A stretch of 23,514 nucleotides of DNA from a virus. Positions 10,312 through 23,514 of the stretch are shown piece by piece; the stretch's first letter is position 1, and each line of letters starts with the position of its first letter. The position numbers and the translations under genes were made by a program. The notes under the pieces were generated by a model. It saw nothing but the letters and a program-made list of their open reading frames with translations, did no database searches and was not told the DNA's origin. Location: positions 1-23,514 of the IMG/VR virus record IMGVR_UViG_3300017757_000166; one strand, written 5' to 3'.

Positions 10312-12204
10312 TTAATATGTTGTTACTCTACCCTGAATATCAGAAGTAGGAAATTTAAGTTCAAATATACTTGGGTCTAAAGAGGGATATATTACCCCAT
10401 CTGTAGTTGCCCTTTCTAAATCGTATTTATACTGTGAGTATCCTATACTGATACCCGTTTTATTATTAAGTGTAACTTCTTCTACTGTTTGTACTCCTTG
10501 TACTCCTCCTATTAGGTTTTCTATTTCAGATATAATAATTGGTTGGTTTATTTGCCATCTATCTATATTAAAATAACTTTTTAATTCATTAATACAATCT
10601 AATAAAACTTGTTGGTTGTTAAAGCTTTTAAAAGTTGTTATAGAAAAATCTAATCCTATATTAATAATAAAAGCATCTTTAATATTAATAGCATCCGTTA
10701 ACATTCTATATTGTTCTAAATAAGTAGCTAAATTTGTTTTTGTAGCATTATTTAAAGTTGTAAGTTTTTTATTTCCATCATACCCTAAGGTATAAAGACA
10801 TAAACCTAAAGGATTAGGAATTCTGTTAGTTTCACCTGTATTTGAAGGGGATATTTGATCGTCTTGAACAATATGAGCTTTAGTTATTGTTCCAAATTTA
10901 GAAGGCATAGATAAAGTTCTAATAATATAATCATTTAAAGTTACTGTTCTTTTTTGTGTAGAAAAATTAGCCATAGCATTTAATCTAAGTTCTTCTAAAG
11001 TATCTCCACTTCCCCCTCCTTTAGCAGGTTCAGGATTTGTAACTCCTACAGATGATTGTACAAAATTTAATAAGCCACCATTTAAATTAGGTTGGCTTGT
11101 TATGTTTACAAATCCCTTATTAACAATAGTATTAGATCCTACATTTGATTCTAAACCTCCTCCTTTTAAATATGTTACGGTTAGTGTAGTATTAGAGGGA
11201 ACTTGTCCATAAGCTCGTGTGTACATAAAATTTGAGGGATCATAAGCTATATCTAATTTACTAAAGCCATCTTTAATCCCTAAACCAATGTTATCAGGAT
11301 TAGGTATTATTTCTTCATCTGATTTATCACTTATACCTGCACCAAATTGAAGTTGAAGATTATCATTATCTAAAAATCGGGTTACAAATCTTCTTGGTAC
11401 TTTTTTTATTTTTAATAGATAGGGAGTTTGAATACTAGAACCTGCAAGTTTGGGATCATTAGAATATATATTTTCTAAATCTACAAATTTAGTATCTTGA
11501 GCTAAATATTCTACTTCTTCCCATGAATTACCCTCAGAATCTACTACGGATTCTATTTGTATTATATTATCATCAAATAAATTTAGTGTTTTATATTTTT
11601 GAATTTGTCCTACTTCTATTTCTTTTGTTTTTGATTCAGCAGAAACAGCTCTAACTGATTTTTTTAATAAATAATATTCAGGATTACCTGACCCATCAAA
11701 TTTATATACACTAAAATTAGTAGGGTCTAAAGAAGAAGAAACATTAAATCTAAGATCTTTAGTAGTATAAAAAGAAACATTTCCATCTGTTTTAAAAGTT
11801 GAACCTTCACTTATAGTTAAAGCATATGATAAATCAGGGATATATTGACTAGAGGGTAAAGAGGGGACTACTTGAAATACTTCTAAATTTACATTACTAG
11901 CTGCTGTTACTTTAGGTTGGTATCCTAAAGAATATGCTATATTGTATATATTTTCTCTTTCTTGAGCTGTGTTTAAAAAAGTTTCTTTAATTTGAGTATC
12001 AGTATAAAAAGATAAAACATCACCAACATATGCCGCCATTTCTAAAAACATAGTAGCTGGGTTACTTTCTGAAAAATCATTATAAGTATTAGGAAAATAT
12101 GATTGTGCAAAATTTTTAAGTTTAGATTTAAAAGATGAAAAATCTTTACTTAAATAATTAATGTCTTTTTCTTTTATTTTATTTGATACCTTATTGTAAG
12201 CCAT
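10312..12204 (-). CDS. Baseplate wedge protein, T4 gp6 / baseplate-J family
   Basis: This 630-residue protein forms the inner ring joining wedges around the hub in contractile tails. Diagnostic regions are residues about 45-98 (SNPATMFLEMAAYVGDVLSFY, then ETFLNTAQERENIYNIAYSLGY), the N-terminal signature of marine T4-like gp6 proteins, and about 396-445 (GGGSGDTLEELRLNA, NFSTQKRTVTLNDYI, KFGTITKAHI), the J-family segment with the conserved arginine, threonine and DY. Length agrees with T4 gp6 (660 aa). It overlaps the stop of gp25 by one base, the gp25-gp6 order typical of T4, P2 and related contractile systems. The product is expected in the assembled baseplate, with no export signal. The identification is strong. 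Confidence 0.93.
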   Translation of the reverse strand: MAYNKVSNKIKEKDINYLSKDFSSFKSKLKNFAQSYFPNTYNDFSESNPATMFLEMAAYVGDVLSFYTDTQIKETFLNTAQERENIYNIAYSLGYQPKVTAASNVNLEVFQVVPSLPSSQYIPDLSYALTISEGSTFKTDGNVSFYTTKDLRFNVSSSLDPTNFSVYKFDGSGNPEYYLLKKSVRAVSAESKTKEIEVGQIQKYKTLNLFDDNIIQIESVVDSEGNSWEEVEYLAQDTKFVDLENIYSNDPKLAGSSIQTPYLLKIKKVPRRFVTRFLDNDNLQLQFGAGISDKSDEEIIPNPDNIGLGIKDGFSKLDIAYDPSNFMYTRAYGQVPSNTTLTVTYLKGGGLESNVGSNTIVNKGFVNITSQPNLNGGLLNFVQSSVGVTNPEPAKGGGSGDTLEELRLNAMANFSTQKRTVTLNDYIIRTLSMPSKFGTITKAHIVQDDQISPSNTGETNRIPNPLGLCLYTLGYDGNKKLTTLNNATKTNLATYLEQYRMLTDAINIKDAFIINIGLDFSITTFKSFNNQQVLLDCINELKSYFNIDRWQINQPIIISEIENLIGGVQGVQTVEEVTLNNKTGISIGYSQYKYDLERATTDGVIYPSLDPSIFELKFPTSDIQGRVTTY

Positions 12205-12611
12205 TATGAGTTAAAATTTAGTTGTATAGCATCTGTAGTTGAATCTATTTTATAGCTATATATTATTTTTATATATAATAAATAATCTGCCTCAGAAAAA
12301 TCTGAAATAGAATCTATCAAATTTATTTGAGGAATATAAGTATTTATTTGTTTGTTTATAGCATTATTTAATGTTCTAGAATCTGTTACTTGGGAAAATA
12401 ATAATTTTTTTATTCCTACACCATAAGTAGGTAAATGTAATCGTTCTCCTGGTTCTGTTAGTAATAAATTAACAAGATTAGTTTTAGCCTGTTCTTTAGT
12501 TGTTCGGGTTCCTTGGCTTAAACTTTTTTCATTTAAAGGAAAAGATACTCCTAAAGTTATATCTTTATTTATATCTAAGGGGTTTATTCTTCTAATAGTA
12601 TTTATAGCCAT
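12204..12611 (-). CDS. Baseplate wedge protein, T4 gp25 / GPW family
   Basis: This 135-residue protein belongs to the gp25-like (GPW_gp25) family, which nucleates sheath assembly on the inner baseplate in contractile phages and type VI systems. The family core is at about 17-75: DITLGVSFPLN, a helix with TKEQAKTNLVNLLLTEPGER, then LHLPTYGVGIKKLLF. The TEPGER segment with the following Y/F-G-x-G-I is the clearest hallmark. Length is the usual 110-140 residues. It overlaps both neighbours by a single base in TAATG junctions (12611 and 12204), implying translational coupling with the 140-aa protein upstream and gp6 downstream. Confidence 0.92.
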   Translation of the reverse strand: MAINTIRRINPLDINKDITLGVSFPLNEKSLSQGTRTTKEQAKTNLVNLLLTEPGERLHLPTYGVGIKKLLFSQVTDSRTLNNAINKQINTYIPQINLIDSISDFSEADYLLYIKIIYSYKIDSTTDAIQLNFNS

Positions 12612-16947: not shown

Positions 16948-17703
16948 TTAAATTCTCACATATCCTGTTTCACGATATTCATTATGAAGCTTATAATATA
17001 ATTTCTTTAAATGTTTAGTTACTTTAGTAATTACGGGAGTATCTACATTTGTAATTTCACGTATATAAATATAAAGAGCTTTTTTATTAAAAATTTCTAA
17101 ATTTTCTCTTCTTTTAAATAAAATATTTACAGCATCGCACACTTTTCTATCATTATCTTTTTTAAATATAGTAAACATATGTTTATCTACATATGATGTA
17201 AAATAATCTATAAAATCTTTTAATTCTTGTTTACGTGCAGGTCTACCTAGTTGCTGCAATACTCCACTATCTTCATCAGCCGCCATAACATCTGTTGTTA
17301 TTTTTTTCTTCTTATAATTATTATTATTATAAAGTATAAGATAATTTTTTCCTACAATACTGAAATAACTAAAAGCTTTACTACCTCTTTCTGGTTTAAA
17401 ATAGTCTAATTTTTCTAAAAGAAAACACATTACTTCATGTTTTAAATCTTCTAAATTATCTACTTCTGTATAATAAAATTTAAAAGTGTGAATTAAATTT
17501 TCTGCTAATTTATATAAAGCATAATGAATACGGGTTTTATATATGTAATCTCTTTCATCTTGGTTAGTAGATGCTAAGTATTCTGCTATTGCTGCTTCTG
17601 TGTCTTCTGTGAAGTATCTTTTTTTAGTTCTTTTTCTACCTCTTTTCTTTTTAGGTGGGGGGATAGAGTTTGCTTCCAATTTAATTTTTGGTTTTGTAAT
17701 CAT
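16948..17703 (-). CDS. Late-transcription sigma factor, T4 gp55-like
   Basis: This 251-residue protein resembles the divergent sigma factors that direct host RNA polymerase to phage late promoters. It has a basic N-terminal tail (PPPKKKRGRKRTKKRYF), then TEAAIAEY at about 35-42. Residues 58-120 form the sigma region 2-like core: YALYKLAENLIHTF, LEDLKHEVMCFLLEKLDYF, and the diagnostic GSKAFSYFSIVGKNYL (T4 gp55 has a comparable KGKAFNYF). A Lys/Asn-rich loop follows. Residues about 205-240 (ALYIYIREITNVDTP...ITKVTKHLKKLYYKL) look like a helix-turn-helix. It follows the 84-aa membrane protein by 3 bases and precedes the baseplate cluster. T4 gp55 also needs the sliding clamp and gp33 for full activity; neither is in this window. 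Confidence 0.82.
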   Translation of the reverse strand: MITKPKIKLEANSIPPPKKKRGRKRTKKRYFTEDTEAAIAEYLASTNQDERDYIYKTRIHYALYKLAENLIHTFKFYYTEVDNLEDLKHEVMCFLLEKLDYFKPERGSKAFSYFSIVGKNYLILYNNNNYKKKKITTDVMAADEDSGVLQQLGRPARKQELKDFIDYFTSYVDKHMFTIFKKDNDRKVCDAVNILFKRRENLEIFNKKALYIYIREITNVDTPVITKVTKHLKKLYYKLHNEYRETGYVRI

Positions 17704-19011: not shown

Positions 19012-19046
19012 GATGTGTAATAAGAAAATTTGGTGAATCCAAATTT
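19012..19046 (-). terminator. Rho-independent terminator-like hairpin after the 484-aa gene
   Basis: Right at the stop codon of the 484-aa gene, the minus strand reads AAATTTGG (19046-19039), loop ATTCA, CCAAATTT (19033-19026), then the T-rich TCTTATTA. This is a perfect 8-bp stem with a 5-base loop and a short T tract. The stem holds only two G-C pairs, so its strength is modest, but it is the best hairpin in any gap of this A/T-rich window. Confidence 0.5.
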
Positions 19047-20499
19047 ATTGTGATATTTTTACAAACTTAGATGAATCATTAGTAGATGAATAAGCATATC
19101 TTAAAATATCATCTAATATTTCATTTGCAGGTTGTGGTTGATTGTCTTCAAGTCTTTCTACAAATTCTAAACTAAAGAAATTACCTACTTTCCATGTTAA
19201 TTTTGATGAATTATATTTTTCTTCAAAAGCTTCTTTTGATATATTTTCAATAAATCTATCATATAAGTAATATAATTTATTATAATGATTTTTATCATTT
19301 GTTTCAAAAGATTTTCTTACTTCAGATGCAGCAGGTAAAGGGGATAAACCATTATTTTGTAAAATTGTATTTATAGCTTCTCCTCCTGCTTTACCACCTT
19401 GAGCAATTTTTCCATTTACTTCTACAGCAAATCCTCCTAATCCTCCAAACATTCTAGCGGTTGCAGTACCTCCTGTAAATAATATAGTAGCTCCAGATGA
19501 TTTAGGGGTAGTTTTATACCCTTCATATGAATATTTTTCTGCTTCTATTTCAGGATCATTATATATTTTTTCTATGGCATCATTCTTTTTACTAATTTTT
19601 TTTAATGATACTCCTACTAATTTTCCATCTTCATAATAATCAGCAATTTGTCCATTTAATACTTCTACATTACCTGACCAATCTTCATCTACTACTTCAG
19701 GGCTAAATAACCAAATATCAGCTGGGTTCCATTTATCTTCTTTCATTTTTGAAAATTGAAGAGATTTTTCATCTTCTTTTTCAAAAGATTTCATAAAAGC
19801 AGTATATAATCTTTCTACTGCTACTGAAGCTCTATGAAAAGTGTAGCTTTTATTAGGAAATAATTCATATATTTTATTTATAGATTTAACTATAGAAGAA
19901 ACCCATTCAGGTTTTCTAATTATAAAATCTTCTACTTCATCAATAGTAACAACACCATCTACATATTGTGCTCCTTGTTCAAAATTTTCTTTAATTAAAT
20001 CTCTTTCTGTAATAGGTCCTTGTATAATATAATAAGCTATAGCACAAGCATAACAATGAGCAGATTCTTGCATTTTAGTATCCGCGCCTGCTCCTGTAGG
20101 TTGGCCTCCAAATTCTAATGTTTTTTCAAAATTAGTTAATTTATGGGTATTACCTGAAGTATCAGTAAATATTAAATTTTTAGTATCAAAATCTTTGTTT
20201 TGGATTTTTTGAATAGATTCAGCAGATTTTTCTAAATCTATAATAATTTTAGAACCATCTTTTAATTCAAATTCTTCACCTTTATTAATTTTATCTAAAA
20301 ATAAAACATCATTATCTCTTTTTTTTAAAGTATCACCCTTAAAAGGAGCTTCTTTTAAATTTTCAATAATAGTGTTTGAAGGTAAATTTAATTTTTCTAA
20401 AATTTGTTTAAGTATAGAGATATCAGAAGGGCTATCCAATGATGGATACCCCTTTTCTGACCTATAAGACCATTCTAATAATAACTCATCGAGAGTCAT
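19045..20499 (-). CDS. Large uncharacterised phage protein, possible nuclease-like fold
   Basis: This 484-residue protein is not confidently recognised. The N-terminus (LDELLLEWSYRSEKG...SDISILKQILEKL) looks like a short helical module. Residues 144-160 hold QESAHCYACAIAYYIIQG, two cysteines in a helix. Residues 256-301 contain KWNPADIWLFSP and, about 35 residues later, VGVSLKK. The spacing of P-x-D and S-x-K resembles a PD-(D/E)xK nuclease core with serine in place of the acidic residue, but this is only a pattern. A Gly/Ala-rich segment (ILFTGGTATARMFGGLGG) follows. It starts 4 bases after the acidic 129-aa gene and ends at a terminator-like hairpin, so it is probably the last gene of that operon. 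Alternatives are an internal or head-associated virion protein. Confidence 0.7.
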   Translation of the reverse strand: MTLDELLLEWSYRSEKGYPSLDSPSDISILKQILEKLNLPSNTIIENLKEAPFKGDTLKKRDNDVLFLDKINKGEEFELKDGSKIIIDLEKSAESIQKIQNKDFDTKNLIFTDTSGNTHKLTNFEKTLEFGGQPTGAGADTKMQESAHCYACAIAYYIIQGPITERDLIKENFEQGAQYVDGVVTIDEVEDFIIRKPEWVSSIVKSINKIYELFPNKSYTFHRASVAVERLYTAFMKSFEKEDEKSLQFSKMKEDKWNPADIWLFSPEVVDEDWSGNVEVLNGQIADYYEDGKLVGVSLKKISKKNDAIEKIYNDPEIEAEKYSYEGYKTTPKSSGATILFTGGTATARMFGGLGGFAVEVNGKIAQGGKAGGEAINTILQNNGLSPLPAASEVRKSFETNDKNHYNKLYYLYDRFIENISKEAFEEKYNSSKLTWKVGNFFSLEFVERLEDNQPQPANEILDDILRYAYSSTNDSSKFVKISQ

Positions 20500-21088: not shown

Positions 21089-21096
21089 TTATTATA
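21089..21096 (-). promoter_or_regulatory. TATAATAA box overlapping the stop of the 371-aa gene
   Basis: The minus strand reads TTATAATAAATAAA across the stop codon of the 371-aa gene, sharing the TATAATAA core with the gaps at 13046-13053 and 16927-16934. It ends 16 bases before the ATG of the 49-aa gene. It shares only the core with the other two sites, and its overlap with a stop codon makes chance more likely. Confidence 0.25.
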
Positions 21097-22207
21097 ATTT
21101 TAATCCATTTGAAAGGCCTTCTAAATATGCTGCCTTTGCTATTTCGTAATATGTTTTAACACCCATAGCTCCTTCTCTTAAAGAAATACCTTTTTCTTTT
21201 ATAATTTCAAGAAGTTTAATATGTTGTTCACGAGTCATATCAGTTTTAGCTATTTCATATCGCATTTCATTAGTTTTTATAACTTCTTCTTCTTCTTCTT
21301 TTTCAATAGCTTTAAGTCTAACACCTAATGCTTTAATAGTTTCAGGTAAAGTTGATCCAAATACATCCCCAATAACAACACTATTACCTTTTCCATCTTC
21401 ACCAAACATTTTTACATGTTTTTCTAATGTTTTTTCAAATTTTGCATTTGCTGTTTTTAGTAACTCATTATATTCGTCTGCTCCTCCTTCTTTGCCTTTA
21501 AATTTAGTTTTATAAGTATTAAGTAATTCATCTTTTTTAGCTAAAAGACTTTCAGGAGCTGGTTCGTCTTTAGTAAATTCACTTTCTTTACCTTTTTTAC
21601 CTCTGTATAATAAATCATTAATAGCATCTTTTTCTAAATCAAATCTATTACCTTTAGCTTTTTTAGCTCCTTTTGTAGCAGCTTTATCTGCTTTTTCTTC
21701 ATCGGCATCAAAATCTTTTTCTTCTTGTTCTTTAAGAACTTGTTTTATTTCATTTTTAATTGATTCCTTAAGTGCTTTCATTTTTATGTCAGCTTTTGTA
21801 GATACTTCTTGACTTTTAATTTTTGGTTCAGTCATTTTATCATTTTTAAATGCATTTTTAACTTCTTTCATTTTATTCATATCATAATGGTCTTTAAGCC
21901 AAGCTTTAAAATTTTTACCTTCAATTTTACTTCCATGATCCATTCCTGCTTCAAACTGCATTAATCCTGAGTAATATGCAGGATGATGATCTAAATTTTT
22001 TAAAACACTTTCTGTAGATTTTTCTCTTTCTTCAGGAGTAGATTCTTGTAATCTCATACATCCCAAAGCAGTTAGTTCATAATCCATACCTTTCCTAAAT
22101 TCATATGGATTTACTCTATCTAAACGATTACCAGATCCAGGTATTCCCTCATTAGGAACTGTTTCTTCTTTTTTTGGATTATATCCGTAAAATTTATTAT
22201 TTGCCAT
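21092..22207 (-). CDS. Charged helical phage protein, possible capsid-assembly or internal protein
   Basis: This 371-residue protein is of unknown function. The N-terminal 105 residues look like a compact conserved domain (NPYEFRKGMDYELTALGC, STPEEREKSTESVLKNL, HHPAYYSGLMQFEAG). The middle is very rich in Lys and Glu, with MKALKESIKNEIKQVLKEQ at about 142-160 and an Asp/Glu/Lys linker. The last 110 residues are helical again (SVVIGDVFGSTLPETIKAL, then MTREQHIKLLEIIKEKGI and YYEIAKAAYLEGLSNGLKL). The central helix resembles the start of the 129-aa protein encoded two genes later, suggesting partners or shared targeting. A 49-base gap separates it from the T9SS cargo-type gene. The composition suits a scaffold, core or internal virion protein, but no homologue is recognised. 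The start has no Shine-Dalgarno sequence. Confidence 0.72.
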   Translation of the reverse strand: MANNKFYGYNPKKEETVPNEGIPGSGNRLDRVNPYEFRKGMDYELTALGCMRLQESTPEEREKSTESVLKNLDHHPAYYSGLMQFEAGMDHGSKIEGKNFKAWLKDHYDMNKMKEVKNAFKNDKMTEPKIKSQEVSTKADIKMKALKESIKNEIKQVLKEQEEKDFDADEEKADKAATKGAKKAKGNRFDLEKDAINDLLYRGKKGKESEFTKDEPAPESLLAKKDELLNTYKTKFKGKEGGADEYNELLKTANAKFEKTLEKHVKMFGEDGKGNSVVIGDVFGSTLPETIKALGVRLKAIEKEEEEEVIKTNEMRYEIAKTDMTREQHIKLLEIIKEKGISLREGAMGVKTYYEIAKAAYLEGLSNGLKL

Positions 22208-22256: not shown

Positions 22257-23514
22257 TTATTGTTTTATGATTTTATTATTTATTATTTTATTATTATGAT
22301 TTATATTTAAATTATAAATACCCCTTGGTAATTTAGTCATATCTATTTGTGTTGTTTTTTCTTTAGAAATAACTAAATTTCCTATCATATCATATAATTT
22401 TATATCAACTTCTTGATTTATATTTAATATGTTAATTATTGGGTTAGGATATATTAATAACTCACCATTTATTTCTTCTAAATCAACAGGCCATCCTAAA
22501 TCACAATAATTATATAACTCAATACAATATGAATTCCAATTACCTGTACAACATTCAGTGTCAATTGATATTACCCACTCAAAACATTCGTTAGGTAACC
22601 AATATGGAACTCCAGGTCCACCACTACATCCAGCATCATATTCACAACTTCCATCATCTGTATTGACATTTCCATCGTAATTATAAGCATTAACATCAGT
22701 ACATCCTGTTAGTATGTCAATACAAGTTCCATTATCTGTATTTGCTAATGAATCATAATTAAATGCATTAATATCAGTACATCCATAAATTATTTCAATA
22801 CAGCTAAAATCTTCTGTATTTGCTTCTGAATTATAGTTGAAGGCTGATGCATCAGTACATCCATAAATTACAGGTATACATGAATCATTATCTGTGTTTG
22901 CTAATTCGTTATAATTAAATGCTGTTGAATCTGTACAACCATAAATGTAATCTATACATGAAAAATCATCTACATTTGCTAATTCATTATAGTTGATTGC
23001 CGCTGAATCTGTACATCCTTCAACTATTTCTATACATGAATCGTTATCTACATTTGCTTCTGAATCATAATTTAATGCTGTTGGGTCAGTACAACCATAA
23101 ACAGTTAATATACATGAATTATCGTCTGTATTTGCAAATGCATCATAGTTAAAAGCGAATATATTTGTACAACCTTCTATCACTGGTATACATGAATCAT
23201 TATCTGTGTTTGCAGATGAGTCATAATTAAATGCTGTTAAGTCAGTACAACCATAGATAGGTAATATACAACTACCATCATCTGTATTTGCTTCTGAATT
23301 AAAGTTTAAAGCTGAACTATCAGTACATCCTGGATATAAACAAGATCCATTATCTACATTAGCTATATAATTATAATTTATTGCTTCAGAATTAGTACAG
23401 CCAAAATATAAACATGAGTCATCTCCTACGTTTGCATTTTCATTATAATTCCAAGCTACATCATCCATACAACCAACTACTACAGGGATACATGAATTAT
23501 CATCAAAATTTGCA
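22257..23514 (-). CDS. Partial T9SS-sorted repeat protein (5' end outside window)
   Basis: The frame is open at the right edge: upstream of the ATG at 23466-23468 it continues in frame as A-N-F-D-D-N-S-C-I-P-V-V-V-G-C, part of another repeat, so that methionine is internal and the true start lies outside. Visible are 418 residues. First come eleven full repeats of G-C-T-D...A-x-N-Y...A-N-x-D-x-x-S-C, 24-26 residues each with two cysteines. Next is a Cys/Trp-rich module (ECFEWVISIDTECCTGNW...C...YC). The last 69 residues (22260-22466) are a type A T9SS sorting domain: LLIYPNP, DIKLYDMIGNLV, LPRGIYNLNI and a basic end. Such domains send proteins across the Bacteroidetes outer membrane and are normally cleaved on surface attachment. 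An N-terminal signal peptide would be expected off-window. The T9SS and repeat assignments are firm; the biological role is unknown. Confidence 0.87.
   Translation of the reverse strand, partial: ANFDDNSCIPVVVGCMDDVAWNYNENANVGDDSCLYFGCTNSEAINYNYIANVDNGSCLYPGCTDSSALNFNSEANTDDGSCILPIYGCTDLTAFNYDSSANTDNDSCIPVIEGCTNIFAFNYDAFANTDDNSCILTVYGCTDPTALNYDSEANVDNDSCIEIVEGCTDSAAINYNELANVDDFSCIDYIYGCTDSTAFNYNELANTDNDSCIPVIYGCTDASAFNYNSEANTEDFSCIEIIYGCTDINAFNYDSLANTDNGTCIDILTGCTDVNAYNYDGNVNTDDGSCEYDAGCSGGPGVPYWLPNECFEWVISIDTECCTGNWNSYCIELYNYCDLGWPVDLEEINGELLIYPNPIINILNINQEVDIKLYDMIGNLVISKEKTTQIDMTKLPRGIYNLNINHNNKIINNKIIKQ
22635..23514. repeat. Tandem array of about 78-bp units (GCTD repeats)
   Basis: At least eleven head-to-tail units of mostly 78 bp (some 72-75 bp) encode the GCTD...NY...SC repeats and continue past the window edge. 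Units differ at many silent and some coding positions, but neighbouring units share long identical blocks such as those encoding NYNELAN and TDNDSCIP. That fits repeated duplication followed by drift, with scope for recombination to change copy number. Confidence 0.9.

Follow-up and report, generated by a model that had tools for sequence, protein, structure and literature searches.

Bacteroidota are major degraders of polymers in the sea, and the type IX secretion system (T9SS) is their route of export to the cell surface. In Flavobacterium, the gliding and T9SS proteins SprB-SprF and RemA pair a T9SS surface protein with an outer-membrane barrel, and T9SS adhesins such as SprB and RemA are suspected to offer phages a receptor route. 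Phages can also modify the host envelope by themselves, as do Llp of phage T5 and the porins and other outer-membrane proteins of lambdoid phages, which act in the host outer membrane to block receptors or alter the surface. Phage proteins with T9SS type A sorting domains have been described in Cryophage, where they were proposed to use the host secretion system and superinfection was named as an option (PMC7468147). T9SS-sorting-domain proteins encoded near head genes are also reported for crAss-like BACON phages of Bacteroidetes (PMC6949934).

The stretch of DNA that we analysed (hereafter the window), which is an entire virus record of 23,514 bp, encodes a protein of this type. A first-pass annotation had singled out this gene as the best candidate for an undescribed system. 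This no longer stands for phage-encoded T9SS cargo as such, already known from the two studies cited above, but it does for a larger unit that the annotation had not recognized: the cargo belongs to a four-gene cassette present in many phage lineages, and this cassette appears to be new, since we found no description of it in the open-licence literature. We consider it very probable that the gene is a phage-encoded T9SS cargo inside a real cassette. Whereas Cryophage cargo comprises endoglucanase, GH39, and PA14 proteins located in variable islands (PMC7468147), here a single conserved cargo architecture occurs in a fixed cassette together with a predicted outer-membrane barrel (OMP), a membrane protein that combines a single hydrophobic helix with a coiled coil (TMcc), and a thioredoxin-like protein devoid of CxxC (TRX). 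The crAss-like phages have BACON domains and come from the gut, and the excerpted part of that source describes no such cassette (PMC6949934). The pairing of a T9SS surface protein with an outer-membrane barrel in the cassette resembles SprB-SprF and RemA, but the genes are those of phages and not of the host, the barrel has a generic fold and is matched by no sequence in Pfam or the PDB, and the sorting domain of the phage cargo is of type A instead of type B. The T5 and lambdoid proteins are small lipoproteins or porins, none of them using the T9SS, in contrast with the T9SS domain of the cassette cargo.

The 3' part of the cargo gene occupies the right end of the window (22257..23513, minus strand) as an open frame of 418 aa. 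Its 5' end lies beyond the window edge, and its start and signal peptide are visible in relatives only. The translation begins with an array of 11 complete and one partial GC[TM][DN]xxAxNYxxxANxDxxSC repeats (22638..23513, minus strand), each with two cysteines and spaced by 24 and 26 aa, with complete units from 23474 downwards; such repeats occur throughout the homologs too. The array is followed by a conserved Cys/Trp domain and a linker (22455..22637, minus strand) with the pattern DAGC..YWLxxxCfxWVIxxDxxCC...WxxxCxxxYxYC. This pre-CTD domain, YWLPNECFEWVISIDTECC...WNSYC, corresponds in the window cargo to the residues YWLPNECFEWVISIDTECCTGNWNSYC; in an alignment of 58 sequences its CC, WVI, WD, and C positions are invariant or nearly so, and its motif is present in 80 of the 94 cargo proteins scored as complete by script. 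The gene ends with a T9SS type A sorting domain (Por_Secre_tail; 22260..22454, minus strand) that exceeds the curated cut-offs of both TIGR04183 (35.8 bits against 23, E 9.4e-12) and PF18962 (42.1 bits against 27). The Cys-paired GCTD repeats and the T9SS cargo-type C-terminus proposed by the first-pass annotation are thus both borne out. TIGR04183 also matched all 58 diverse homologous C-termini that we sampled.

All main open reading frames of the window, including the cargo, are encoded on the minus strand. The cargo stop (22257) is separated by 49 bp from the start (22207) of the downstream neighbour (21092..22207, minus strand), a 371-aa protein (MANNKFYGY...) without assigned function that is conserved in the window's lineage. 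Further away are the genes for a T4 gp25-like baseplate wedge protein (12204..12611, minus strand; PF04965 32.8 bits, cut-off 27.2; phrog_261 E 3.6e-12) and a gp6-like baseplate wedge protein (10312..12204, minus strand; phrog_6 E 2e-22, phrog_219 E 5.7e-22), as well as for a possible sigma-like late transcription factor (16948..17703, minus strand) with a weak match under the cut-off (PF04542 E 0.036). The association with T4-like genes noted in the first-pass annotation is therefore real, and related phages show it likewise. Portal models had no match in the 23.5-kb window fragment, and neither capsid nor portal was found in the records of its close relatives; among other cassette phages, Gp23 occurs in 5 of 31 records and the portal in 4 of 26. 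The window also encodes a 484-aa phrog_1462 protein (19045-20499) with ~25-30% identity to many cyanophages and no assigned function. A PADLOC scan retrieved no defence-family matches, and a promoter and terminator scan gave no excess over shuffled sequences.

A search of viral contigs retrieved 55 loci with cargo relatives. In 20 other loci, some of them on near-identical contigs, the cargo ends 46-59 bp ahead of the same downstream phage gene, so that the same-strand spacing of 49 bp described initially is a recurrent arrangement. Complete homologs from the window's lineage have 1050-1330 aa; those in longer contigs (L004, L012, L017, L020, L021, and others) measure 1050-1310 aa and consist of a signal peptide, beta-sandwich-like domains, 14-18 repeats (as counted by a simple pattern match), the Cys/Trp domain, and the sorting domain. 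Signal peptides are predicted by inspection at the start of complete homologs (MKKLLLLLALLPSFLFSQ...), and a crude script rule flagged them in 56 of 94 complete cargo proteins. The first-pass annotation had placed the signal peptide, and possibly further phage genes, to the right of the window edge; both are seen in these full-length relatives, the longer contigs having phage genes on both flanks of the cargo. The AlphaFold model of a 665-aa relative (L050) has a mean pLDDT of 48, low in the repeats, and fair confidence only in two sandwich domains and the CTD (pLDDT ~78), the only parts that we used. The best PDB match of this CTD model was the translocon-bound T9SS substrate NucA (8glk_D, prob 1.00, TMt 0.66); 7pq4 and 5ag8 were matched too (prob 1.00) and the RgpB CTD was among the matches, such that the modelled CTD fits the T9SS CTD beta-sandwich fold. 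The last 150 codons of the window cargo compared with 15 relatives yielded dN/dS values of 0.12-0.26, lower than those of the neighbour gene (0.24-0.69, computable in 13 of those 15 relatives); the cargo C-terminus is under purifying selection. A profile of the N-terminal part of the cargo matches 216 of 396 Flavobacteriales genomes, and the matches listed are single domains or repeats except for one contig (L068, see below), in keeping with a cargo pieced together from host-type parts and with hosts endowed with a T9SS.

Some loci depart from this layout. Three cassettes (L058, L059, and L062; e.g., L062:7635-10939) have two adjacent T9SS-domain genes, coding for ~690 and 411 aa, the second with a weak CARDB-like domain below the cut-off. 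Other cargo proteins keep the remaining domains and end in an alternative tail of ~45 aa, KKLIMITDLLGRPV..IKNQLLFYIYxDGSVxKK (L093:9721-12417, L102:3487-6165, L122:10910-13156, L134:4770-6956, L136:3195-5378, L145:9653-12571, and L036/L037). This tail, which has no significant match in Pfam or NCBIfam, is present in 23 of 60 Flavobacteriales genomes, with up to 51 matches per genome and a C-terminal position in the examples that we read; it is a candidate for an uncatalogued surface-sorting tail.

Clustering of the neighbouring genes revealed that three genes accompany the cargo. The OMP (340-390 aa) is predicted to form an outer-membrane beta-barrel of ~12 long strands (pLDDT 79), TMcc (94 aa) has one hydrophobic helix plus a coiled coil, and TRX (110 aa) is predicted to be exported and to adopt a thioredoxin fold in which NxxN replaces CxxC. 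Compared with PF00085, one TRX copy (L062) scores 24.0 bits, over the cut-off of 23.5, and another (L061) 18.7 bits, under it. The TRX consensus is FNAxWNxxN, and CxxC occurs anywhere in just 8 of 105 sequences, so that the family lacks the catalytic motif. Only the cargo is visible in the window and we deduce its three partners from relatives. Among 118 barrel loci, cargo is found within 3 kb in 107, TMcc in 97, and TRX in 102, and those missing a partner mostly lie near contig ends. The 78 complete cassettes are always on one strand and show three basic orders (39, 33, and 5 cases) plus one with two cargo genes. Barrel sequences average 62% identity across loci that differ in flanking gene content, and the cassette occurs both on contigs that encode a T4-type capsid and portal and on contigs where neither was found. 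Across all loci, the strongest partial correlations of divergence are those between the barrel and the pre-CTD part of the cargo (0.45) and between TMcc and TRX (0.40); they are only suggestive of partnership, because the pattern changes with gene order, and the first could be partly due to linkage.

Neither the barrel nor TMcc belongs to any significant Pfam or PHROGs family. We considered the barrel as a homolog of PorV or SprF and make no such claim: sequence searches found no Pfam match to PorP/SprF or other T9SS partner families, and Foldseek retrieved a T9SS chain (8gl6_F, E 4.4e-3) amid many unrelated barrels. TMcc as a holin is disfavoured by the presence of separate holin-like genes in several loci. 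The barrel frame is intact in most records but split into two in those of L002 and L012, both closely related to the window, which reflects either decay or sequencing error. One record of 73,554 bp (G002, locus L027) contains cargo, TMcc, and TRX, yet over its full length no barrel turned up; some phages may thus do without the barrel or encode it away from the other three genes. A viral record of 245,646 bp (L077 and L083) contains two complete barrels and two T9SS cargo genes ~119 kb apart.

Relatives of the barrel are present in at least 533 viral contigs, as compared with 4 loci, all on contigs of metagenome-assembled genomes (MAGs), in 84,980 species genomes. Neither the barrel nor TMcc had a match among 50,697 GenBank phages, where CTD matches were marginal only (fecal and huge-phage records) and TRX matches were weak and in unrelated phages. 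Among 396 Flavobacteriales genomes, the barrel was found in two: a distant homolog (L151) that adjoins a ribonucleotide reductase-like gene and an M15 endolysin, and the contig mentioned above (L068:1-21077). The latter, assigned to a Flavobacteriales MAG, comes from a T4-like phage and has UvsX-, NrdA-, NrdB-like, and queuosine-type genes; its presence in the MAG is probably due to binning contamination. This MAG has ~40 TIGR04183 matches, in contrast with mostly one or two per virus record.

As the best overall explanation, which we favour somewhat over an even chance, the four genes form an envelope cassette whose T9SS-exported cargo coats the infected cell and masks its receptors. Because the cassette comes from no cultured phage, we infer timing and export. 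The cassette proteins would be made late in infection, as suggested by the proximity to lysis genes: holin- or endolysin-like genes (M15, amidase, or other) are found within 4 kb in 44 of the 66 loci with enough flank, a count that is a description and not a test against chance, since the gene models derive from those same flanking genes and include members that are only putative. Given the predicted signal peptides and the sorting domain, OMP, TRX, and cargo would pass the inner membrane via Sec, the host BAM would place the barrel in the outer membrane, and the host T9SS would read the C-terminal sorting domain and export the cargo. In the periplasm, TMcc and TRX may assist the folding of the disulfide-rich cargo or retain it. 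The cargo would have to reach the surface before lysis, because the T9SS needs energised cells, and would be kept there by the phage barrel, by the attachment machinery of the host, or by both. Its repeat rod would then cover the infected cell and hide surface receptors, so that progeny would be spared re-adsorption to that cell or to debris from it, and other phages would be excluded. In Cellulophaga, T9SS adhesins are suspected to be phage receptors (PMC13288928), and occupying the T9SS route would therefore make sense. Taken separately, the masking or exclusion role is the most likely use of the cargo, but a tentative one that we rate below an even chance. Against the explanation stand the lack of any match between the N-terminal domains and known masking proteins, the failure to find a barrel in G002, and, in the lineage of the window, a cassette with no lysis gene seen beside it. 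Still more doubtful is the complete scheme of a phage surface-display system combining its own barrel and periplasmic helpers with the host T9SS, which would coat infected aquatic Bacteroidota with the disulfide-rich protein and block both superinfection and progeny loss.

The same neighbourhood might instead point to a spanin-like, envelope-breaking or lysis-timing module, in which inner-membrane TMcc, periplasmic TRX, and the barrel and surface protein at the outer membrane would form a trans-envelope complex opening the outer membrane at lysis. The cassette has predicted parts for each envelope layer, and TMcc is laid out like an i-spanin, with an N-terminal helix followed by the coiled coil. 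However, the match of TMcc to the PHROG spanin is not significant (E 0.26), such a module has no obvious need for a disulfide-rich surface protein of 600-1400 aa exported by energised cells, and lysis genes do not adjoin the cassette in every lineage, with none seen beside it in the window's own. In addition, the row in L068 (spanin-like gene, two-helix gene, cargo, barrel, TMcc, TRX, and amidase) already has an Rz-like spanin match (99 aa, phrog_739 E 5.9e-5), a two-helix holin-like gene, and an amidase endolysin, leaving no missing step for the cassette to fill, and we regard this function as unlikely. We give equally little credit to an adhesin or aggregation factor by which infected cells would adhere to other cells or particles and their progeny reach new hosts. 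A stalked adhesin would have a similar layout, with beta-sandwich domains ahead of long Cys-rich repeats, and such single domains and repeats are common in the Flavobacteriales genomes, but a Pfam search of the cargo found no lectin or adhesin domain. Ligand-binding tips usually diversify, whereas the C-terminal region, the part tested for selection, is conserved and not hypervariable.

A virion or tail-fibre protein with an incidental T9SS-like C-terminus might be suspected from the cyanophages S-CAM3 and ACG-2014j (H42-H48), whose proteins matching the GCTD-type repeats carry the annotation virion structural or hypothetical, and from six loci (L042-L046 and L063) with a second large repeat protein, upstream of the cassette, that lacks a sorting domain. 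Yet virion assembly is cytoplasmic, while complete cargo proteins have a predicted signal peptide and a T9SS domain that exceeds the cut-offs and has the matching fold, which makes a virion location highly improbable. The first-pass annotation had also envisaged a host/prophage junction or a misassembly, and the contig end that cuts the cargo gene and the Flavobacteriales-type domains would agree with these or with a binning artefact. This alternative is refuted for practical purposes by the identical junction in the 20 other loci, the phage genes on both sides of the cargo in longer contigs, a base composition equal to that elsewhere in the window (GC 0.283 in the cargo gene versus 0.276, GC3 likewise equal), and the strong bias of the barrel towards viral contigs, with one of its four genome loci, L068, turning out to be a T4-like phage when read closely.

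The preferred reading, a T9SS-exported cargo that coats the infected cell, suggests that phages re-dress the surface of the cells that they infect. By appearing to exploit the T9SS, the cassette would represent an unrecognised form of phage control of the infected-cell surface, present in hundreds of viral contigs. It would also provide a sequence marker that ties viral contigs to T9SS-bearing hosts, and it offers four proteins open to testing, of which the barrel and TMcc have no significant Pfam or PHROGs relative. If true, this display system would be widespread in metagenomes and would have remained unseen because no phage carrying it has been cultured.
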